From positions 62,001-126,000 of the forward strand of contig JABLWW010000001.1 in assembly GCA_013178295.1 (NCBI GenBank): DNA of 64,000 nt. Reading direction: 5' to 3'. The notes beneath the pieces were generated by a model. It was not told the origin of the DNA. It saw only the letters and a list, made by a program, of their open reading frames with translations, and did not search any database. The DNA comes from Anaerolineae bacterium. Its GTDB lineage: Bacteria > Chloroflexota > Anaerolineae > Anaerolineales > Anaerolineaceae. Positions 36,162-52,707 of the stretch are shown in pieces. Positions within the stretch are counted from its first letter, which is position 1, and every line of letters begins with the position of its first letter. The position numbers and the translations under genes were made by a program.

Positions 36162-37388
36162 TCAGGAAGTTTCGTTGAATATTTCCTGAGCAAGTTTGCT
36201 CAGCGCCGTTGCGTCCTCGGGAGAGGTTTTTGTGGCTTGCAGGTAGAGATTCAGAAGCTGAGCTGGTTCCATTTGGCTGATGGCTTGATCTTCTGGAAGG
36301 CGAAAGCGGTTTTCAACTTTTGGGCGGCGGATGAAATGAAATTCAAAGGCATCCTGTGTATATTGTCTTATGGCCTGTTCGTCAATCATCGATTCGAGAT
36401 GACGGGGATATTCGATTACGAGACGCACAATTGAATCTGCCATTTCCTGTTGATTGGGCAGGGCAGCCATGATGCTTTGCAACACTTGCTGGTCTGATGT
36501 GATCTCGGCTCTGCAGTCAATAAAACGTCTGCCTTGCAGTTGGCGCCATTCGATGCGGGTTTTTTGCCCTTTTTCGAGATGCACAATGACGAAGGATTTA
36601 TCGTCCCGGGCTTCGCCCCAGTCAACGCGCTCGATGGAGCCGGAATAGATGATTGGGTGATGACCATCTGGGCTGAGGTTCTGCGCTTTGTGAATGTGCC
36701 CCAGCGCTACGTAGTCCAATCTTTTGTCTTGCATCAGTGAAATTGGTAAGACGAGGTCGCCACCCAGCATGACACTGCGTTCTGCTCCGTATGTGGCTCC
36801 TTCCACAGAAGCGTGGGCGGTGAGAACGAGCGGAAGGTCGGGGTCGGTCTGATCCAGCAGAGAAGGGATCAGGGCTTGGACGTATGTCTCTATGGCTTCG
36901 TTAATCGCTACATGGCTCGCAGCGCTCAACTCCTGGGCGGCCATGAGCGCAGAGCGTGTAATCCAGGGCAGCCCGATCACCTGTAGGGCTAACCCATCCA
37001 GGTCTTGGGGCTTTAGCAGACAGGCGCGGCTGATGACCGAGACATGCGGTATTTTCAGTGTGTCGAATTCCTGTAAAGCGTGTGCTCGTCCGAAGGCAGG
37101 AGACAGGTCGTGGTTCCCAATGACGAGGATGGTGCGGATACCTGCCTGTGAAAGACGCATGATACGCCGTTCCCACTCTCGCTGGAATGTTGGCGATGGG
37201 GTACGGTCTTTGTATGCATCTCCGGCAAAGAGGACGACATCCACCTGTTCGCTGATTGCGGTGTCCACAATTGTATCGAGAGCAGCGAGAAAATCGAGGA
37301 CACGTATGGGCAAGCCGCTTTGCGCATCGCGGCGTCCCTGGCTTGCCATATCAATGTGAGCGTCTGCGAAGTGCAGTAACTTGATCAT
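36162..37388 (-). CDS. sbcD: SbcD/Mre11-type nuclease
   Basis: A 408-residue calcineurin-like phosphoesterase nuclease. The metal motifs are HFADAHID (about 6-13), FAGDAYKDR, VIGNHDLSPAFGRA, and later ALGHIHKAQ. The C-terminal half is the capping and SbcC-binding region. With SbcC it forms the ATP-dependent double-strand-break and hairpin nuclease. The start overlaps the stop of the upstream C39-like gene by 4 nt, so it is coupled to it. Confidence 0.94.
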   Translation of the reverse strand: MIKLLHFADAHIDMASQGRRDAQSGLPIRVLDFLAALDTIVDTAISEQVDVVLFAGDAYKDRTPSPTFQREWERRIMRLSQAGIRTILVIGNHDLSPAFGRAHALQEFDTLKIPHVSVISRACLLKPQDLDGLALQVIGLPWITRSALMAAQELSAASHVAINEAIETYVQALIPSLLDQTDPDLPLVLTAHASVEGATYGAERSVMLGGDLVLPISLMQDKRLDYVALGHIHKAQNLSPDGHHPIIYSGSIERVDWGEARDDKSFVIVHLEKGQKTRIEWRQLQGRRFIDCRAEITSDQQVLQSIMAALPNQQEMADSIVRLVIEYPRHLESMIDEQAIRQYTQDAFEFHFIRRPKVENRFRLPEDQAISQMEPAQLLNLYLQATKTSPEDATALSKLAQEIFNETS

Positions 37389-38707
37389 GGACAGTTGCTA
37401 ATCCCCAGTTGACCGAGTCTGTCAGTGGAAGGGATAAAATTCGGGTGATATTTGAGACTTTGACAGAGGTCTTCTATGGCCCCCTGCTGATCACCCAATG
37501 CAATACGTGCTGAAGCACGCCAGTAAAAGCTTTCTTCGAGATAAGGTTCATACGTGGCTTCCAGGACAGTAGTTGCAAGGTTGATCACGTCCTGGTAGCG
37601 CCCGGTGTAATAATATGCAAAGTAGGGTCCGGTCTGATACCAAACAATGCGGAATGGACGGGTGCTCTCAGGCAGGGTTTCATAGAGTAGAAAAGCCTGG
37701 TCGTAAGCCGCGGCAGCGCTGTAATAGTCTTGCAGGCGCACCAAGCTGGTGCCGCGGTTGAACCAGGCAAAGAACTGGTCATTGCCGCTTTGGGTGTAGA
37801 TTTCTTGAGAAGCCCGTTGCGCGGCAATCTCTTCGCTTTTGCGTTCGTCGGCATAATCGCCGAGCAGAGTCAAGAGATGTCTTTCCCTGTCTTGGGAATA
37901 GACAACGAGGAAAACGTAGTTGAAAGACCGCCATTCTTGTAGCAGGGTGTCGTAGCTTACCGGATAATCGGGAGAGTAAAAGGAATCCTGGGTGTTGAAT
38001 TCCCCCTTTGTATCGTCATAACCGGTAAGTACGGAGTAATGTCCCATCCAGCTGATCTTGCCGGTGGTTGTTTCGCGAATATAGGTACCCTTTTCCACCA
38101 GAACCGGATAACCGCCCGCCAGGAGGGCTTTGAGCAGTTCAATCGTGCCGCCAGAACGCACAATCACACCGAGTGAGGTTTCTTCACGCACGTAGTCTGC
38201 CATTTCATAGGGCATTACATTTTTATCTTTTTCGAAAGGCTTGAGCCATCTGCCAGTGTCCATGCGGTCACCTTCCCAGCCCCAGTAGGAGAGCAGCATT
38301 GCCAGGTTGGCAGGGGCACAGTAATTCCATACGCCGTGCTGATCCATATAGCGCACGCCGCTAAGCCTCACGCTGCCTGGCAGTGGAGTGGGGGTTAATG
38401 TGGGTGTGGCAGAGGGCATGCCGGTTGGTATGGGGGTGGCTGGCGCGCTGGTAGGCGTTATCATCGCAATGGCAGTTAGTGTGCCCGCAACGGCGGTCTG
38501 CTGTTGATCTTCTGGCTTGAAGACAGCCTTCTCAGGAGGGAAGAAGATGTAAAAAATGCGTGTGCTGATTTGTTCAAAGCGGTAACTGAGGCGTTCCCGG
38601 ATGGGTTTAACAGCCAGGATGATAAAAACCAGCAGGACTGCGATACCCGCCAGGGTAAGCGCAGCGGGGATGAGTATATGTTTTTTTTGCCGCAGAGTTT
38701 TTAGCAT
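37385..38707 (-). CDS. Membrane-anchored C39-like cysteine peptidase with TPR-like tail
   Basis: A 440-residue protein. One N-terminal membrane segment (about 11-33) is followed by a Thr/Pro linker (about 80-110) and a C39-like peptidase domain (about 112-275). Cys is in NYCAPANLAMLLSYWG, His in GHYSVLTGYDD, and Asp in NTQDSFYS. Residues about 290-440 carry helical TPR-like units (AWFNRGTSLVRLQDYYSAAAAYDQAF, seen in part, and ALGDQQGAIEDLCQSL). It may process exported peptides; no bacteriocin or ABC exporter gene is nearby. TATAAT lies 6 nt before the ATG, predicting a leaderless mRNA and a promoter separate from the upstream kinase genes. Confidence 0.85.
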   Translation of the reverse strand: MLKTLRQKKHILIPAALTLAGIAVLLVFIILAVKPIRERLSYRFEQISTRIFYIFFPPEKAVFKPEDQQQTAVAGTLTAIAMITPTSAPATPIPTGMPSATPTLTPTPLPGSVRLSGVRYMDQHGVWNYCAPANLAMLLSYWGWEGDRMDTGRWLKPFEKDKNVMPYEMADYVREETSLGVIVRSGGTIELLKALLAGGYPVLVEKGTYIRETTTGKISWMGHYSVLTGYDDTKGEFNTQDSFYSPDYPVSYDTLLQEWRSFNYVFLVVYSQDRERHLLTLLGDYADERKSEEIAAQRASQEIYTQSGNDQFFAWFNRGTSLVRLQDYYSAAAAYDQAFLLYETLPESTRPFRIVWYQTGPYFAYYYTGRYQDVINLATTVLEATYEPYLEESFYWRASARIALGDQQGAIEDLCQSLKYHPNFIPSTDRLGQLGISNCP

Positions 38708-38719
38708 GATGGAATTATA
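38708..38719 (-). promoter_or_regulatory. Predicted leaderless promoter of the C39-like gene (-10 box)
   Basis: TATAAT (38714-38719) lies 6 nt before the ATG at 38707 on the minus strand. No convincing -35 box is visible. Confidence 0.5.
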
Positions 38720-38791
38720 ACATCTTCAAAGTATCGCCCCGTGAGAAGGTTTTTCTTGTGATGCGCTTGTTTGCTGCCCTGTAGATGTGGT

Positions 38792-41700
38792 TTACTGGAC
38801 ATGCCGATAGGCGGTGAAGTTGTCGAACATCACTCTAAATCCCTGCGGGTCAGCTTTATCCTGGTTACCTGTCATAATTGCCACACCGCCATCAGCAGGC
38901 AGGGTTGTATCATCGAGCGAGTCAATGAGCTTGTCATTGATGAGAAGAGTGATGTTGGTGCCGGTGCAGTCCAGTGCCATGTGATTGGTACCCCAGGTTT
39001 CCAGATTGGTCAGAGTTTTCCAGGCGATGAGGGGTTTAAATTTGTTGTCTTTGAGTAGCTCGATTTGGTATGCCTGGGCGAAAGGATCAATCTCTACGAC
39101 ATAGAAGTTGCTGTTGTCTTGTATGCGGCACATTGCCCCGTAATAACCCAGAAACTGATTATTTTTGGACTTGTCTGAAATGCGCACGTCAAATTCGATC
39201 ACCTGAGGGCTAAAATCAACAGGGGGAGTTACCCAGCGGAAAAACCCGCGCTCAAAGACGTGGATAAAGTATTCTTCGCCTTCATACCCCCAACTTTCGC
39301 GGTTATCTGTGCCTTCTTTCCACTTCTTTGTGGAGAAATCGTCACTGAAGAAGTAAGGACTCTGTACAGCGGGGGAGGTTGGGGTGGGGGCATTTTCGCT
39401 GGCGTCTAACAAGTGGGCGTAGAGCGGGATAATGGCTGCCTGCTCCTCTGTGAGTATCTTCTCAGCCTCAATGTACAGTCTTTGACGTTCCAACGGATCA
39501 TTCATGCCAGCCGCTTGCTGCACCAGCTGATCAAAGCGGGCGTCGGCAAAGAATCCCGGATTGGATTCTGAGGTTGATAAAAAGAGGGTGTTTAAGAAAT
39601 TATCGGGGTCGTTATAATCAGCAGCCCAGCCGTATGAGAAAAACTGAAAAGCGCCCGCCTGGCGTTTTTCGGAAAATTTCTGCGCGTCAGTGTAACAGTC
39701 TATGCTGACATCGACACCCAGCTGAGACCACATGCTCACCAAATATCTTGCCAGCTGTATGGCAGGTGTTGCCGGGTCGTCGCAGGCTCCCGAGGCGGAT
39801 CGCAGGGAGAAGGCAACAGGCGGTAGCCCTTCGCCTTTGGGATAGCCAGCCTGAGCGAGATAAAAGCGTGCCTGTTCGAGGTCGTAGCGAATCCCAACCT
39901 CGCGGTAAAGGTCGCGCCCCAAAACCTGCGGTGGGGTCAGCGTGGTCAGAGGGGCTGTATCGTAGCCATACAAATTTTTGGCAAAATCCGCAACACCCTG
40001 GCGGTGTATAGCCGCTGAGAATGCTTTGCGCACCAGCACATTATCAAAGGGGGGCATACGCGTGTTGAAGACGATAAAACGGCTGGTTGGTGTTTGGGCA
40101 AGCTCTAGTTCCAACCAGGGGATGGAGCGCGCCATGTTTTCTATGGGTATGATAACTTTACCAGGCAGAGGGGGGGGATTGGTTGGAGTTGGGGATGCGA
40201 ACAACTGAGTCTGGATCAGCGGATTAGTGGTGGGTATCGCCGGGTTGGTTTGCGGCTCGGCGACGTTGATGCTAGACCAATCGGTCTGTGGCAGGATGAC
40301 TAGAACGCCCACCACGCAGAGAATGACTGCTAGAAGCCCTGCGCCAAGCAGTGCCCAGAGCACCCAGTTTCGCTTTTTGGTGGGCGTTGGCGCAGAAGGG
40401 GAGAGAGAGGGAGGGGAAGTGGGAGCAGGGGTGTAAACCGCTTCGAAAGGGGTTGTAGGGGGAGCGGCTGTTGTTACGACGGCAGCGCCTTGAGCCAGTT
40501 GAATTTTGTTGCTGACTTCGGCGACAATAGTATGTAGCTCATCGCGCATTCCCCCGGGCGGGGCGACAGCCAGGGCACGCTGGTAGTCAATCAGTGCGCC
40601 CTGCAAGTCGCCAGTGCGCTCTTTACCCTCTGCTACTTGCAGCAGAACTCTTGCCAGTTCTCGTCCGCCGATGGCTGGCGCGAGGCGGTAGGCTTCCTCC
40701 AGCTCGTGCAGCGCTTTATCTGTTTGCCCCACACCAAGATAAATCTGTGCGCGCTCGACCGCTGACCTGACCAGCCGTTCCTGTGGGGTTTCCGCCTTTG
40801 GCGGAGGGGGGGGCGGGGCTTCGATGGTCATAGTTGATTCTTTACTTGTGGATGGCTGCGGAGCTGCTTCGTAGGGTGCTTCCAGTGCCTGTTGCCATTC
40901 GGCAAACGTTGGGCAATCTTTCAGAGAGGAACTTTCCCATGCGCGGGTAAACAGGTCTGAAATTTGCGCGCCGTGGTTTTGATAGAGTGACCCAACCAGG
41001 ATTTCATATCGTTTGTTGATGCATTGTGTTTCTTCCAGGTCGAAATACTGCTCACCATAAGCTGCCTGACGGACTTCCTTATCGCACCAACCAAGCATTT
41101 CTGCCAGAAGGACTGCCCCGGCAAAGCGATCACCCTCTGCTGACCAGTTTCCTTCTTTGGTGGTGCGGTGTGCATACCCTGAGGAAGCACTTGGAGGTAC
41201 CTGCGGACGGGGAAAGCCGGGTGCGTACATGTCTTCAACATCTACCAGCGCTACCAAACTGCTTTTGCCTTCTGTGGGCATGGATGAAGTTTGCAGACCG
41301 GGTAAAAGGACATTTGGGGCGGAAAGATCGCAGTGTGCCAGACCCTCTGCTTCCATACGCGCCAGGATAGCTGCAAGCGACTTTGCCAGCAGACGACTCT
41401 GGTTGACCGTCAGCGGCTTTCCGCTGAGTATAAACTCTTGCCAGTTCTCCCCATACACCCATGGCATGACCACCGCGTACAACAGGTTCTCGTACTTTTC
41501 TAAGAGGTCGCCATGCTGTTGCGGTGTCAACACCAAGCGGCGACAGACCTGCAGACCGGGGAGACTGGCGAACGGTGCCATGCGCTCGACACCTTCCGCA
41601 ATACGGGCTTCGCGAAAGCTGAGGTTGAAGATTTTGATCGCATGACGCCCGCCGTCTGGGGTGCTGAGCTGATATACTGTGGCACGCCGCCCACTTTGAC

Positions 41701-41794
41701 CATAGGGCATTCCTTTTGCAGCGGGATGCTCGGTAAATGTATATGTTTGATCGTTGATGGTTAATGTGGTGTTGACGCTTGGGCGCAATTCCAT
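38792..41794 (-). CDS. Kinase-like / TPR / transmembrane / peptide-binding / LamG-like fusion protein
   Basis: A 1000-residue five-part protein. Residues about 1-310 form a divergent protein-kinase fold: Gly-rich YGQSGRRATVY, Lys54 in HAIKIF, HCDLSAPN (Asp156, Asn161) for HRD, and LVDVED (Asp185) for DFG, so key catalytic residues are kept. TPR helices span about 340-435 and a single membrane helix about 474-499. Outside, about 555-795 matches the C-terminal half of oligopeptide-binding proteins (NTRMPPFDNVLVRKAFSAAI, GWAADYNDPDNFL); the first lobe is missing. Residues about 813-1000 form a LamG-like module. Likely a sensor that couples an external ligand to an internal kinase (inference). 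It follows the kinase-vWA gene by 50 nt. Confidence 0.85.
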   Translation of the reverse strand: MELRPSVNTTLTINDQTYTFTEHPAAKGMPYGQSGRRATVYQLSTPDGGRHAIKIFNLSFREARIAEGVERMAPFASLPGLQVCRRLVLTPQQHGDLLEKYENLLYAVVMPWVYGENWQEFILSGKPLTVNQSRLLAKSLAAILARMEAEGLAHCDLSAPNVLLPGLQTSSMPTEGKSSLVALVDVEDMYAPGFPRPQVPPSASSGYAHRTTKEGNWSAEGDRFAGAVLLAEMLGWCDKEVRQAAYGEQYFDLEETQCINKRYEILVGSLYQNHGAQISDLFTRAWESSSLKDCPTFAEWQQALEAPYEAAPQPSTSKESTMTIEAPPPPPPKAETPQERLVRSAVERAQIYLGVGQTDKALHELEEAYRLAPAIGGRELARVLLQVAEGKERTGDLQGALIDYQRALAVAPPGGMRDELHTIVAEVSNKIQLAQGAAVVTTAAPPTTPFEAVYTPAPTSPPSLSPSAPTPTKKRNWVLWALLGAGLLAVILCVVGVLVILPQTDWSSINVAEPQTNPAIPTTNPLIQTQLFASPTPTNPPPLPGKVIIPIENMARSIPWLELELAQTPTSRFIVFNTRMPPFDNVLVRKAFSAAIHRQGVADFAKNLYGYDTAPLTTLTPPQVLGRDLYREVGIRYDLEQARFYLAQAGYPKGEGLPPVAFSLRSASGACDDPATPAIQLARYLVSMWSQLGVDVSIDCYTDAQKFSEKRQAGAFQFFSYGWAADYNDPDNFLNTLFLSTSESNPGFFADARFDQLVQQAAGMNDPLERQRLYIEAEKILTEEQAAIIPLYAHLLDASENAPTPTSPAVQSPYFFSDDFSTKKWKEGTDNRESWGYEGEEYFIHVFERGFFRWVTPPVDFSPQVIEFDVRISDKSKNNQFLGYYGAMCRIQDNSNFYVVEIDPFAQAYQIELLKDNKFKPLIAWKTLTNLETWGTNHMALDCTGTNITLLINDKLIDSLDDTTLPADGGVAIMTGNQDKADPQGFRVMFDNFTAYRHVQ

Positions 41795-41844
41795 CTTACT
41801 TCTCTTTCGGTTTTTCGCTTATGGTAACTAAATTTTAATCTGTT

Positions 41845-43578
41845 TCATTTGCTGCGCGAAACGGGGGTTGCGCTGGACATAACGAATCCCATTTCAACCA
41901 GCTCCTTGGTCATGCCAGGCAGCATCATGTAACTGCCTGGTTCGATGCGGTATCCTGACTCCAACATCATGATACGGTAACTTTCTGGTAGGATGGAAGA
42001 CATGTTGCGCAGTTTTATTGCATATTCATTGGTCAGGGGTGATTTTGCGCTGATCCCTTGCCATTGGCGGGGGTTAGGAATGTTTTCGTTAATGATTTTA
42101 TCGGATATAAAGATGTTTTCCACCAGTACTGCCCCATCTGGGTTTCTCATCCTTTTGATGCGCTCGACGATTTCTTCAGGGTCATCCCCAGTAAATTCTC
42201 CATCTGTCATGTGGCAGACCAGTGGTGCAGGACAGTCTGCCATGTTGGGTAATTCGTGTTGTAGCAGCTTTTCAACGTGGAGAAAGGCTTTTGCCGTATC
42301 TGTGCTGCGCATGGTGACCAGCTCTGGGATGCCCAGACTGGCGACGTAGTCAACGGTCTTGATGCCGTTGAGCAAGTCGTAAACGTGATCGCTATAGGCA
42401 TATATTGCCAGACGGTAACGGGGCGCCACTCTTACACCTTTTGTTGAACGGAAAACCATCTGTTGAATGGCAGCATAAAGTGCTTCGGTAACCACGTCAA
42501 TGCGCCGGCGGTTTCCCATCATATGAGTCATGGAAGAACTCACGTCCAGGATATAAATGATGAGAGCGGGTGTTTTGCTGGTGGCGAGCACCTCATATTT
42601 GTCCTCGGTGGTGGATAATGCCGGTTGGACATAGGGGGCCTGCCGCTGTTGTGCCTGTAAGGCAATTTCGGCAGGTGTATCCGTGTGTTTTATATAGACG
42701 AGGGTGCCTTTTTCCGTAATCACTGTGTCGGGGCGTTTTTGTGCACTGGGCATGCTGCCGCTCAGACTTTCGATCTCGCCAATCATCTGGTCAATATCCT
42801 GGTAGCGGTCTGAGGGCTTCTTTTGTAGGGCTTTGCAGATCACGCGTTCCACCTCTGATGGCAGATCAGGTGCAAACTGCCGTGGCGGGGGGAGCGGCTC
42901 TGAGATGTGTTTGAGCATTACTGCCATGGGAGTATCGGCGCGGAAAGGCTTTTGACCGGTTACTAGCTCATAGAAGACGACTCCCAGGGCATAGATGTCG
43001 GCGCGGTGATCCACCGTTTCTCCCATTCCCTGTTCTGGTGCCATATAATCGGGGGTGCCCATGCCAACCCCGGTGCTGGTCAGATGACTGGCAAGTTCGC
43101 CTGCCACGATTTTGGCGATGCCAAAATCGGTTAATATCGGTGAGTCGGTCTCCGAAAAGAGAATGTTGGCTGGTTTGATATCACGATGAACAATATTGCG
43201 CCGATGGGCATAGGAGAGGGCGCGTGCAATGGGCAGGATGACATCGACCGCTTCTTGATAGGAAAGACGCCGTCGGCTTCTTTCCTTCAGTGAACCCCCG
43301 CTGAGGTATTCCATGACCAGGTAGGGCTTGCCACCGCTTTCGCCGTAATCGAAAATTTTGACGATATTAGGATGGTTTAATTGAGCGAGCGCCTTTGCCT
43401 CGCGCTCAAAGCGCTTGATGAAATCGCTGCTGGTCAGACTTTCTGGACGAAGCACCTTGACGGCAACATACCGTTCGAGACGCTGGTCGTATCCCTTATA
43501 TACCGCAGCCATCCCGCCCATCCCCAGCATACCGACCAGTTGGAAAGGACCAAGATTCTGACCTATAAGTTCACTCAT
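41845..43578 (-). CDS. Ser/Thr protein kinase fused to von Willebrand A domain
   Basis: A 577-residue cytoplasmic protein. Residues about 10-275 are a canonical PknB-type kinase: Gly loop GMLGMGGMAAVYKG, Lys41, HRDIKPAN (Asp133), DFG at 151, GTPDYMAPEQ activation segment. After a linker, a vWA domain runs from about 338 to 577, with MIDAS residues in LDVSSSM, a Thr in RSTDT and Asp in MTDGEF. No membrane helix or PASTA repeats are present. Kinase, vWA and PP2C are separate genes in E. coli YegI/YegL/YegK and in TerY-associated loci; here kinase and vWA share one chain. The gene follows the PP2C gene by 5 nt. Confidence 0.92.
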   Translation of the reverse strand: MSELIGQNLGPFQLVGMLGMGGMAAVYKGYDQRLERYVAVKVLRPESLTSSDFIKRFEREAKALAQLNHPNIVKIFDYGESGGKPYLVMEYLSGGSLKERSRRRLSYQEAVDVILPIARALSYAHRRNIVHRDIKPANILFSETDSPILTDFGIAKIVAGELASHLTSTGVGMGTPDYMAPEQGMGETVDHRADIYALGVVFYELVTGQKPFRADTPMAVMLKHISEPLPPPRQFAPDLPSEVERVICKALQKKPSDRYQDIDQMIGEIESLSGSMPSAQKRPDTVITEKGTLVYIKHTDTPAEIALQAQQRQAPYVQPALSTTEDKYEVLATSKTPALIIYILDVSSSMTHMMGNRRRIDVVTEALYAAIQQMVFRSTKGVRVAPRYRLAIYAYSDHVYDLLNGIKTVDYVASLGIPELVTMRSTDTAKAFLHVEKLLQHELPNMADCPAPLVCHMTDGEFTGDDPEEIVERIKRMRNPDGAVLVENIFISDKIINENIPNPRQWQGISAKSPLTNEYAIKLRNMSSILPESYRIMMLESGYRIEPGSYMMLPGMTKELVEMGFVMSSATPVSRSK

Positions 43579-43583
43579 GGCGC

Positions 43584-44564
43584 TTAACTCTTCTTCTCTT
43601 CCACGTCGTCTGGATTTTTCGCGGGCGGTTGAGGGATGAACGTCCCCAGCACTGTTTTCGCAGTTTCGATATCGGCTGGGCTGGTGTTAAGAAACACGGT
43701 GGGGCTTTCCAGTGAAACCGGGTTGCTACTGGCAAGGACATTCTCGGGTGTTTTCCCCAGCCATATCTCAAGATAAGAAATGTCGTCGCTCTGGGGGGTG
43801 TGTGCCGACTGGATCATTAGCTCCTGGATGTGATTGTTGGAAAGAACAACCTGAATGTTATCCAGTGATGAAAACCCGTCTGAGTATATCTGCCAGCGTG
43901 AGATGATGGGTGTGTTATCCTCGTTGAACAGCGGAGAAAAATATACATAGGGCTTACCGTTGATGATGCCATGTTTGCTTGACCACCGCTGGGTGGTAAG
44001 GAATTCTCCGCCAAGCTGCTGGCTGATTTCTTGGTTCTGTCGCCAAATGCGCAGCCGTGAGTCACCCATCCAGGCGGTTAGGAAACGCCCTCTAGGCAAA
44101 TTCTTTGACGGCAGGTCAATGCGGCCGCCTATGAAGGTAGATTCGCTGCCTTTGTCTCGTTTTTCTTCCAGCACCTCGCGCAGCAAAGGCGGAATACTGG
44201 CAGGGAGGGCGTAATTCTTCACGGCTTCGTTTGCTTCCAAAGACAATCTGCGCAGGTGCTGTTCGAGATCATCCTGTATCTGGGCTTTGTCTTGTGTTGG
44301 CGGCAGTGAACTCAACCATTGTATTAGCGCGTTTCCCAACATTCTAGCTGCCAGGTCGCCAAAAAAAGACTGGCTGACACCGTCACATAATACGAAGAGG
44401 AAAGATGTTTCACACACCTGAAAACCCAGATAATCTTGTGCCGGATCATTATATGTGCGTGAATCTGCCGAGCGTGCATAGGCGTAACGGTAAGAAAAGA
44501 GACCAGTTATGCCAACAGTCGGAAGAAAATCGTCATTTTGTGGAAGAAAAAATGGGCTGTCCAT
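43584..44564 (-). CDS. PP2C-family Ser/Thr phosphatase
   Basis: A 326-residue divergent PP2C/SpoIIE-fold phosphatase. Metal-binding Asp motifs appear as LCDGVSQSFFGDLAARML (about 60), TAWMGDSRLRIW (about 165) and SDDISYLEIWL (about 263). SDGFSSLD supplies the usual SDGL-like turn. The C-terminus is Pro/Glu-rich and unconserved. It should reverse phosphorylation by the two kinase proteins downstream. It is first in the operon, with a consensus promoter about 58 nt upstream. Confidence 0.87.
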   Translation of the reverse strand: MDSPFFLPQNDDFLPTVGITGLFSYRYAYARSADSRTYNDPAQDYLGFQVCETSFLFVLCDGVSQSFFGDLAARMLGNALIQWLSSLPPTQDKAQIQDDLEQHLRRLSLEANEAVKNYALPASIPPLLREVLEEKRDKGSESTFIGGRIDLPSKNLPRGRFLTAWMGDSRLRIWRQNQEISQQLGGEFLTTQRWSSKHGIINGKPYVYFSPLFNEDNTPIISRWQIYSDGFSSLDNIQVVLSNNHIQELMIQSAHTPQSDDISYLEIWLGKTPENVLASSNPVSLESPTVFLNTSPADIETAKTVLGTFIPQPPAKNPDDVEEKKS

Positions 44565-50927: not shown

Positions 50928-50953
50928 CTCCGTCGTCAGCGGGGGAGTTTTTT
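50928..50953 (+). terminator. Terminator of tRNA-Val
   Basis: CTCCG (50928-50932) pairs with CGG...AG (50940-50947, GG bulge), followed by six T (50948-50953). The stop codon of the convergent permease gene lies in the T run. Confidence 0.55.
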
Positions 50954-51788
50954 ATCCCTTGATAGCACCGCGTGAGAGACCACGCACCAGATAACGCTGT
51001 GCCAGAAGGGCAAAGATCAAAACCGGCACCAGCACTAGCGATCCTGAGGCAGCGATGCGTCCCCACAGGATGGCTTTGTTGGTCATAAAGCTGGTGATAG
51101 TTACCGGCAGTGTGCGTGCGTCGCGCCCAGTGAGTATGACGGCATACAGAAACTCATTCCAGGCATAGATGAAACCCAGAATTGCTGTGGCAGCTAAACC
51201 GGGGGTAACAATAGGCAAGCTGATACGAAACAGTGCCCCCAGCCTTGTGCAGCCATCAATCATTGCCGATTCTTCCAATTCTTCTGGGACATCCATGAAG
51301 AAGCCAGTCATCATCCAAATAGATAGAGGGATGATGAATGTGAGATATGAAATCAGCAGCGCCCAACGGGTATCTATCAGGTTGAGTGAATTGAAAAGCA
51401 CATACAGGGGGACAATGATCGTGATCGGGGGAAGCATTTGTGGTACCAGGGCGGCAAGCCGCAGGGTTTGCACCCCGCGGAAGCGGAAGCGTGCAAAACC
51501 ATATCCGGCAAAGATGCCGAGCAGCAGAGCAACAAGGGTGGTGCCGAGTGCAACGATCAGGCTGTTGAGGAAGTACTTGACGAATTTTCCTCCGGCAAAG
51601 ACCTCATAGTAGTTTTTCAGCGTTGGTTCAAAAAACCAGACAGGCGGGATGGCAAAGGTCAGCTCTGGCGGTTTGAATGAGGTGATGAGCAGGTAAACGA
51701 TGGGAAACAGCGAGAGAATCACAGCCAGAATAACAAAAACATAAATCAGAACCTGGTTGATAACTTTTGTGACCCGATAGATGTTCAT
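50952..51788 (-). CDS. ABC sugar transporter permease (MalG type)
   Basis: A 278-residue inner-membrane permease of the carbohydrate uptake (CUT1) kind, with six predicted membrane helices and the EAA loop EESAMIDGCTRLGALFRISLPIVTPG near 190-215 that docks the ATPase. It is the last gene of the ROK-led unit, 13 nt after its partner permease. No ATPase gene is nearby, so a shared MsmK/UgpC-type ATPase elsewhere would be needed. Confidence 0.92.
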   Translation of the reverse strand: MNIYRVTKVINQVLIYVFVILAVILSLFPIVYLLITSFKPPELTFAIPPVWFFEPTLKNYYEVFAGGKFVKYFLNSLIVALGTTLVALLLGIFAGYGFARFRFRGVQTLRLAALVPQMLPPITIIVPLYVLFNSLNLIDTRWALLISYLTFIIPLSIWMMTGFFMDVPEELEESAMIDGCTRLGALFRISLPIVTPGLAATAILGFIYAWNEFLYAVILTGRDARTLPVTITSFMTNKAILWGRIAASGSLVLVPVLIFALLAQRYLVRGLSRGAIKG

Positions 51789-51801
51789 AGCTTTGCCTGT
51801 C

Positions 51802-52707
51802 TCAATCTTGTCTGCCGATCAGCCGCGCAAGGACTGCGGCAATGACCAGCATAATCAAAATCATAATGTAAGAAGCTGCGGATGCAAAACTGAGGTTGAA
51901 TGACTGAAACCCGTAGCGATAGACATAGATGCTGACCGTCTCGGTTGCTCGAGCAGGCCCGCCTGCGGTGAGCAGGTAAACCACATCAAAAATGCGAAAA
52001 GTATCAATGAAACGCCACAGCAGGGCAACCAGTATGGTCTGTCTTAACAGGGGGAGGGTGAGATAACGAAACTGCTGCCACCATGATGCCCCGTCAATGC
52101 GTGCAGCCTCATATGGCTCATCCGGCAATGCCTGAAGACCTGCCAGCAGGAGCAGGGCAACAAAAGAAGTGGTATTCCACACGTCAACCATGATCACAGC
52201 TGGCATTGCCAACGCTGGCTTGCTCAGCCACTCCAGGCGAGGAAGCCCCACCACACTCAATAGATAATTGACCAGACCGTAGTCATAATTGAGCAATAAC
52301 CGCCACGTTAATCCCACCACGACATTGGTACACATCATAGGGAGCAGGATGAAGGAACGGATAATCCCTTTGCCTTTCAGATCGTGATTGAGCAACAGAG
52401 CCAGTGCCATTCCCAGAATAAATTCAAGCACAATGGCCGCAATGACAAAAATAAAAGTGATGCGGATGGCATTGAGGAATTCGGGGTTGGAAAACAGGTT
52501 GATATATTGCTTCAGCCCGACGAAAGGCACCCCCTGCCTGAAATCGCGCAGTGTCCAGTTGTGAAAACTGAGATAGAGGGAATATCCCAGTGGGTAAAAC
52601 AGAATAATTGCCAGAACGATAAACGCCGGGGCGATGTAAAATACAGGCTCGTAGCGCCGCATCAACCGCCGCCTGGTTAAGGTGGAAGTAAAATGAGGAG
52701 ATTTCAC
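51802..52707 (-). CDS. ABC sugar transporter permease (MalF type)
   Basis: A 301-residue permease with six predicted membrane helices and the EAA loop YEAARIDGASWWQQFRYLTLPLLR near 203-226. It pairs with the MalG-type gene 13 nt downstream. It is separated from the substrate-binding protein gene by 76 nt containing a strong hairpin, which probably sets lower expression of the permeases. Confidence 0.92.
   Translation of the reverse strand: MKSPHFTSTLTRRRLMRRYEPVFYIAPAFIVLAIILFYPLGYSLYLSFHNWTLRDFRQGVPFVGLKQYINLFSNPEFLNAIRITFIFVIAAIVLEFILGMALALLLNHDLKGKGIIRSFILLPMMCTNVVVGLTWRLLLNYDYGLVNYLLSVVGLPRLEWLSKPALAMPAVIMVDVWNTTSFVALLLLAGLQALPDEPYEAARIDGASWWQQFRYLTLPLLRQTILVALLWRFIDTFRIFDVVYLLTAGGPARATETVSIYVYRYGFQSFNLSFASAASYIMILIMLVIAAVLARLIGRQD

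Follow-up and report, generated by a model that had tools for sequence, protein, structure and literature searches.

We analysed a 64,000-nucleotide stretch of contig JABLWW010000001.1 from an Anaerolineae bacterium (assembly GCA_013178295.1; genome G000 in our numbering), referred to below as the window, and focused on the protein encoded at 38792-41794 on its minus strand. This open reading frame (ORF) begins with ATG, runs without an internal stop codon and encodes a chain of 1000 amino acids (aa), which ORF and domain analyses describe as a receptor-like kinase with a single-lobe solute-binding protein (SBP) ectodomain. From the N terminus onwards, the chain consists of an atypical kinase, probable TPRs, one membrane helix, a single family-5 SBP lobe and a probable concanavalin-like sandwich, an order that was met only in the window protein among the proteins compared.

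The SBP part of the chain (aa 541-795; 39410-40174, minus strand) is a complete lobe II, corresponding to domain III of OppA, with a short preceding stretch and without lobe I. The SBP_bac_5 model (PF00496) matched aa 565-743 with profile positions 195-366 of 368 (E 1.8e-30), above its curated cut-off, and no Pfam match to the first lobe was found in the ORF. A phmmer search against PDB sequences aligned aa 572-794 to residues 273-485 of OppA; we take domain III of OppA to extend over approximately 271-486, so that the alignment spans the whole of lobe II. The structure predicted by AlphaFold2 from 54 aligned sequences contained 205 residues with a predicted local distance difference test score (pLDDT) of at least 90, which block values located in the lobe, and the top Foldseek matches of the model were OppA-type proteins. 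VIA-align superposed the model on residues 279-494 of 5u4o (Z 27.4, rmsd 1.9 A, 213 aligned residues) and on 3o6p (Z 25.5), a solved chain of 227 residues whose matched region, 300-526, corresponds to lobe II alone. All matches of the structure searches cover lobe II and concern that part of the model only; the structure alignment (A4) covered 53 of 80 loci. An SBP-like fold was therefore predicted at residues 555-795, where its absence would have counted against the observation according to the earlier note on this DNA.

The residues following the lobe define its other boundary. In the closed single-lobe proteins described below, 6-8 aa follow lobe II (6 of 6), whereas all 136 full SBPs counted carry at least 29 aa beyond it (median 33), which form the segment returning to lobe I; these 136 were selected from 172 segments as closed proteins of up to 650 aa in which the lobe is preceded by 200 aa or more and is complete at its end. 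In contrast to the single-lobe proteins, the two closed ORFs L077 and L130, whose N-terminal part is short, continue for 31 aa beyond the lobe. In the window protein, a linker starts where the other single-lobe proteins end. These results indicate that the SBP part coincides exactly with lobe II and that both segments crossing into lobe I have been removed. The absence of the first lobe, as claimed in the earlier note, was confirmed by Pfam, the model and the tail lengths. Its description of the region as the C-terminal half of SBP_bac_5 is correct with regard to lobe II but needs amendment, because the C-terminal segment returning to lobe I is also missing. Binding proteins are taken to act through two lobes that close on a ligand. 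The two-lobe cleft of a family-5 SBP is lacking in the window protein according to Pfam, the model and the tail lengths; as the note had anticipated, such a cleft cannot form within the chain, and in the absence of lobe I a flytrap closure on a ligand cannot occur within it either.

Five residues mark the single-lobe proteins as a family: P569, D628, L629, Y630 and I775 are each present in 7-8 of 8 single-lobe proteins and in 0-5% of 73 full SBPs. Two signature residues of SBPs are also kept: W723 is present in all eight single-lobe proteins, D726 in seven of them. D726 aligns with the Asp of the W-C-A-D stretch of OppA, which presumably holds the amino end of the peptide. The earlier note suggested that the ectodomain may bind a partner and not a peptide in a cleft; since W723 and D726 are kept, the lobe may also bind a ligand.

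A whole-protein search of 61 genomes yielded the first two free copies of the single lobe (G060 and G014), and profile searches were then applied to a class draw of 396 genomes (A1) and to family, order and phylum draws of 147, 400 and 400 genomes (A2). For the 65 places of the class draw, lobe positions were computed at 30 loci and the others were judged by the length of the open frame. The single-lobe form is present in eight genomes (G000, G060, G014, G782, G741, G544, G245 and G133), which fall in four family groups (f1, f12, f21 and f64), as five lipoprotein-like and three membrane-kinase versions; two of the three kinases are PknB-type. The free lobe-II proteins (G060, G014, G782, G741 and G544) are 300-363 aa long, their Pfam matches begin at profile positions 187-194, and all five contain a lipobox-like motif, although the start codons in G060 and G014 are uncertain. 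In G245, a PknB-type kinase is followed by a helix (aa 309-327) and lobe II in a protein of 629 aa. The G133 protein (956 aa, ending at the contig end) comprises a PknB-type kinase, a helix (aa 327-345), SBP_bac_3 and lobe II, and a 3-keto-disaccharide-hydrolase-like match below the cut-off (19.2 bits, cut-off 26.8) lies between the helix and SBP_bac_3. Identity to the window lobe is 33-43%, and reaches 74% among the free copies.

In a tree of lobe segments, the eight single-lobe rows formed one side of a branch with a support of 100/100, which was also present in 100% of 200 bootstrap trees. The nearest to this branch were three full SBPs (support 93/69). The tree took 81 of the 172 segments (Chloroflexota and a few others), was rooted at the midpoint only and placed G544 on a long branch. 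Because the kinases are of different kinds, atypical and PknB-type, at least two fusions or one change of kinase are needed. Taken together, the single lobe II is probably a real and reusable sensing or docking module.

The only strong hydrophobic stretch of the ORF in the hydropathy analysis is aa 482-500 (40295-40351, minus strand). It is preceded by positive residues (KKR), in agreement with the single membrane helix that had been noted, and we infer a topology with the kinase inside and the lobe outside. The linker between the helix and lobe II is rich in proline and threonine. At aa 344-411 (40562-40765, minus strand), several TPR models of Pfam coincide, all below their cut-offs (the best, TPR_12, at 25.9 against 30.1), and a pair of TPRs is probable there. 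The C-terminal region (aa 813-1000; 38795-39358, minus strand) has no Pfam match. A profile built from four sequences of this region gave weak matches to the putative glycosyl hydrolase 4jqt (E 0.0014) and to the levanase chains 4b1l, 4azz and 4b1m (E 0.016-0.023), and the region folded alone gave no usable model (mean pLDDT 34.5); on these weak matches the region, which the earlier note called LamG-like, is likely to be a concanavalin-like sandwich. The sandwich is shared with a paralogue in the same genome (G000:C4; 770 aa, 57% identity over aa 1-434), which has the kinase, TPR matches, a helix and the sandwich but no SBP lobe. The lobe was therefore either gained in the window protein or lost in the paralogue.

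The kinase domain (aa 1-310; 40865-41794, minus strand) was assigned by family alignment and a profile search of the PDB. No Pfam kinase model passed its cut-off (APH, 19.4 against 23.2 bits; PK_Tyr_Ser-Thr, 11 against 23.1). A profile of six family members, drawn from four genomes and including the window protein and its own-genome paralogue, matched protein kinases in the PDB with a best E of 4.9e-5. K54, H154, D156, N161 and D185 were invariant in the six aligned members; following the motifs of kinases, we take K54, D156, N161 and D185 to be the catalytic Lys, the Asp of HxD, the Asn and the Asp of the DFG site, respectively. The DFG site reads D-V-E. The window kinase is probably active yet atypical. 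The invariant residues and the PDB matches favour the kinase fold of the earlier note, and its TPRs are probable; the Pfam models for both remain below their cut-offs. The kinase family was detected in 13 of 396 genomes of the class draw at E 1e-40. Among 14 relatives scanned with Pfam, five contain an FGE-sulfatase domain (three of them in G294 and one each in G049 and G373), others have WD40 (G431), Roc-COR (G270) or a sub-cut-off SH3-like part (G049), and the remainder show no clear C-terminal domain. As judged from these domain matches, the family exchanges its C-terminal parts, among them FGE-like, WD40, Roc-COR, SH3-like, sandwich and lobe II. In the Roc-COR protein (L239:6316-9105, plus strand), a window-type kinase is joined to Roc-COR GTPase domains, and a VWA gene adjoins it. 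At two other loci (L206 in G001:C384 and L040 in G049:C22), members of the family lie amid WXG100, FtsK/SpoIIIE, TerY-like VWA and PP2C genes, with YukD in addition in G001 and a WXG100 match below the cut-off in G049, which resembles a type VII secretion-like locus combined with a phosphorylation triad. A link of this kind was rejected for the window, where 0 of 14 Pfam-scanned proteins belonged to such a system. A defence-system reading was likewise rejected, since PADLOC matches these proteins to the kinase models of several systems, which identifies them as kinases and nothing more.

On the minus strand of the window, the genes are arranged in the order PP2C, kinase-VWA, the window kinase, a C39-peptidase protein, SbcD-like and SbcC-like, the last two labels being assigned by eye. 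The gaps between them are short or the genes overlap, so that a single transcript is plausible as a prediction. The PP2C-like phosphatase (43584-44564; PP2C_2 at 23 bits, cut-off 24) was recognised by Pfam and its relatives. The gene at 41845-43578 encodes a PknB-type Ser/Thr kinase fused to VWA (Pfam), the VWA part of which matches free VWA proteins of relatives; in several relatives, the VWA is a separate gene. The downstream gene (37385-38707) encodes a C39-like peptidase domain with TPR (Pfam and relatives). VWA, PP2C and kinase thus stand side by side, with VWA_2 and PP2C_2 below their cut-offs and backed by relatives. Of 11 other genomes whose loci were read, six (G049, G015, G001, G342, G204 and G325) have both a VWA and a PP2C gene near the kinase; PP2C alone was found in G294 and G321, VWA alone in G270, and BLAST found neither near the kinase in G431 and G373. 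The VWA of L043 matches the TerY model of PADLOC at 3e-24. We liken this triad to TerY-P. The same three gene types are adjacent in the window and in six other genomes, whereas in the window the VWA forms one chain with a second kinase, of the PknB type, and the window kinase possesses a helix and an ectodomain. No ABC permease gene was found by Pfam among the scanned neighbours (37385-44564); two BPD_transp_1 genes at 50952-52707 adjoin an SBP_bac_1 gene instead.

In G741, the lobe-II lipoprotein gene (L179:5079-7412) lies about 25 bases from a C39-peptidase gene, which is followed by an SbcD-like gene, in an orientation different from that of the window. A lobe-II gene stands beside the C39/SbcD-like pair only in G741 and the window. 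The C39 neighbour was rejected as a partner, as the pair occurs without an adjoining lobe-II gene in G014, G544, G060 and G782. At the G245 locus (L163, G245:C93), the kinase-lobe II gene lies amid genes that appear by eye to encode PP2C, Ser/Thr kinases, FHA and periplasmic-binding-type proteins.

Lobe I also occurs alone. Searches of the single-lobe genomes with PF00496 revealed lobe-I-only frames of 281 aa in G060 and G741, which match each other by phmmer at E 2.4e-59, while the nearest full SBP among the loci compared matches at 3.8e-29. In a search of 80 genomes, 13 had a match and 11 of these were short frames. This lipoprotein-like SBP_bac_5 family (L241:3944-4720 and L242:3862-4689, both on the plus strand, and L249-L257) consists of closed ORFs of 251-275 aa with a lipobox-like motif in 11 of 11, and 10 of the 11 genomes belong to group f12. 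No lobe II was found in the fetched lobe-I-only loci. Single lobes of both kinds thus occur by themselves. Co-occurrence gave no support to an obligate pairing of the two, and the obligate split receptor that this family had prompted was rejected.

We consider it fairly probable that the window protein is a receptor-like kinase and that its single lobe recognises a ligand or a protein without flytrap closure, docking being included as a sub-case. In such a receptor, the atypical kinase with its catalytic residues and the probable TPRs would lie on the cytoplasmic side, the single helix would span the membrane, and lobe II would offer a one-sided recognition surface outside. The kept face of the lobe may bind a peptide-like ligand, which two receptor chains might share, or the lobe may dock a protein, and the sandwich may anchor the receptor on a polysaccharide. 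Binding would shift the pairing of the receptor chains and thereby the state of the kinase; the adjoining PP2C could reverse the phosphorylation state, and the VWA kinase could be a partner or a substrate. We infer the kinase activity, the identity of the ligand or partner and the direction of the signal. Lobes of binding proteins are reported to fold in isolation, and LAO, HisJ and ArgBP each to bind ligand, at lower affinity, through a single lobe (PMC10601554). Because isolated lobes fold and some bind alone in that account, a one-sided recognition surface is favoured and docking without a small ligand is ranked second.

Several points weigh against recognition by the single lobe and signalling by the kinase. 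The single-lobe form is rare: the family draw gave 3 of 147 genomes, the order draw 6 of 400, the class draw 4 of 396 and the phylum draw 2 of 400. These draws overlap, the cut-offs of A1 and A2 were strict (1e-45 and 1e-58) and only part of the first-look candidates in large draws were scored, so that more divergent members would be missed. D726 is missing in G544, the most divergent member, and the D-V-E sequence together with the failure of every Pfam kinase model weakens the claim of kinase activity. In the remaining 5 of the 11 genomes, some of them represented by short contigs, VWA and PP2C were not both seen close to the kinase. Furthermore, a shared fold by itself demonstrates no function, and a lobe that serves purely for docking would give an identical sequence picture. 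That last possibility, in which the lobe never binds a small ligand but docks on an envelope protein, for instance an ABC permease, a cell-wall protein or a complete SBP, is in our view a serious but doubtful alternative, and its probability overlaps with that of the preferred reading, of which it is a sub-case. SBP lobes are surfaces that contact permeases, and the linker and the probable sandwich point to an envelope-bound arrangement. No permease gene was recognised by eye beside the five free copies or the G245 copy, which also fits docking, but the signature residues of SBPs are kept.

A cleft formed in trans by a lobe-II kinase or lipoprotein with a separate lobe-I protein is unlikely. 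The lobe-I-only family exists in 11 of 80 genomes, G741 and G060 hold both kinds of lobe, and the halves of a ribose-binding protein are reported to reassemble and to bind ribose only in that state (PMC10601554). Nevertheless, a lobe-I-only protein occurs in just 2 of the 8 lobe-II-only genomes, on separate contigs from the lobe-II gene in both (G741 and G060), and no lobe-I-only match was obtained in the window genome at E 1e-28, where a full SBP would be required to lend its lobe I. Within group f12, lobe I alone is present in 2 of 3 lobe-II-only genomes and in 8 of 14 others, which shows no association, and the lobe-I-only matches stop at profile positions 142-145 while the lobe-II-only matches start at 187-194, leaving 40-50 positions in neither. 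That the lobe is a functionless relic of a decayed SBP joined by chance would agree with the small number of genomes and with the paralogue that has the same plan minus the lobe; it is distinctly improbable in view of a single branch over eight genomes and four family groups, the existence of a free protein and three kinases, and the conserved family marks. Misassembly of two genes is very unlikely and the least probable of these explanations. The G+C content at third codon positions (GC3) does rise to 0.657 in the 70-residue helix-linker piece, above the rest of the ORF, but it is 0.54-0.58 in the kinase, TPR part, lobe and sandwich, close to the 0.541-0.582 of five other window genes; the frame is single and free of stops on a contig of 317,515 bases, and the kinase-helix-lobe II order recurs in G245 and G133. 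The fused chain of a kinase and a partial SBP that the earlier note had described is borne out by this intact ORF, the recurrence and the uniform GC3.

Returning to the receptor without flytrap closure, we compared it with known systems. Relative to OppA/DppA proteins of SBP_bac_5, it is alike in the sequence and predicted fold of lobe II and differs in lacking lobe I and the return segment, in having no permease among the scanned neighbours and in its link to a kinase. A 2005 survey lists a Ser/Thr kinase of S. coelicolor with a Glu/Gln-type solute-binding domain and a Nostoc kinase with an ANF-receptor-like domain (PMC1262709). These resemble the window protein in joining a kinase and a part derived from binding proteins in one chain, whereas they use other SBP families and the window protein carries one family-5 lobe on a kinase that is atypical, together with a sandwich and probable TPRs. 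In GlnH-GlnX-PknG, an external binding protein is reported to control an internal Ser/Thr kinase (PMC9769921); that system comprises three separate proteins, whereas the window has one chain with one lobe. Two kinase-AAA-SBP_bac_5 proteins of G040 and a kinase-FHA-TM-SBP_bac_5 protein of G288 match nearly the whole SBP profile. They likewise unite a kinase and a family-5 SBP in one chain but contain a complete SBP, and the G040 pair has no clear membrane helix before it. The combination of kinase and SBP_bac_5, for which the note had suggested an architecture search, is therefore not unique, occurring with lobe II in G245 and G133 and with a complete SBP in G040 and G288; the exact order, of which the note knew no described example, was met only in the window protein among the proteins compared.

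Kinase-SBP fusions are already known, and the single-lobe module is the new part; a search of open-licence papers found, among the listings examined, no publication on a single-lobe SBP as a sensor. A conserved natural family that retains precisely one lobe, severed at both hinge crossings and carried by two kinds of membrane kinase, allows single-lobe sensing to be tested directly; it parallels in nature the split-lobe experiments by which the evolution of binding proteins has been studied in the laboratory. The single-lobe kinases also illustrate the exchange of sensor parts among bacterial kinases. More tentatively, and with rather less confidence than for the window protein itself, it is conceivable that family-5 SBP lobes have been separated in Anaerolineae and that each has turned into a stable module, lobe II as an exchangeable kinase ectodomain and as a lipoprotein and lobe I as a separate lipoprotein. 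Receptors of this kind would need no flytrap closure to signal; two chains might, for instance, share one ligand between their lobes.

Further SBP-related proteins were observed in addition. An ORF of 5224 aa in G004 (L048:3171-18845, plus strand) is matched twice by the window lobe II. In the window genome, an SBP_bac_5 protein (L004:1252-3048, plus strand) seems to be circularly permuted, with the part matching profile positions 61-363 placed before that matching 1-54; BLAST indicated the same swap of order relative to ordinary SBPs in L004, L037 and L051, and similar pairs of PF00496 matches were seen, at the level of the profile search only, in G060, G133, G245, G782, G741 and G014. In G741:C69, lobe II (profile 177-364) precedes lobe I (1-202) in one frame (L243:2322-4316, plus strand), which is cut by the contig end and adjoins two genes that appear by eye to encode ABC ATPases. 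On C5 of the window genome, a 760-aa SBP_bac_5 protein (L052:5221-7503, minus strand) matches only profile positions 2-270, with TPR matches further on, and may be a remodelled SBP.

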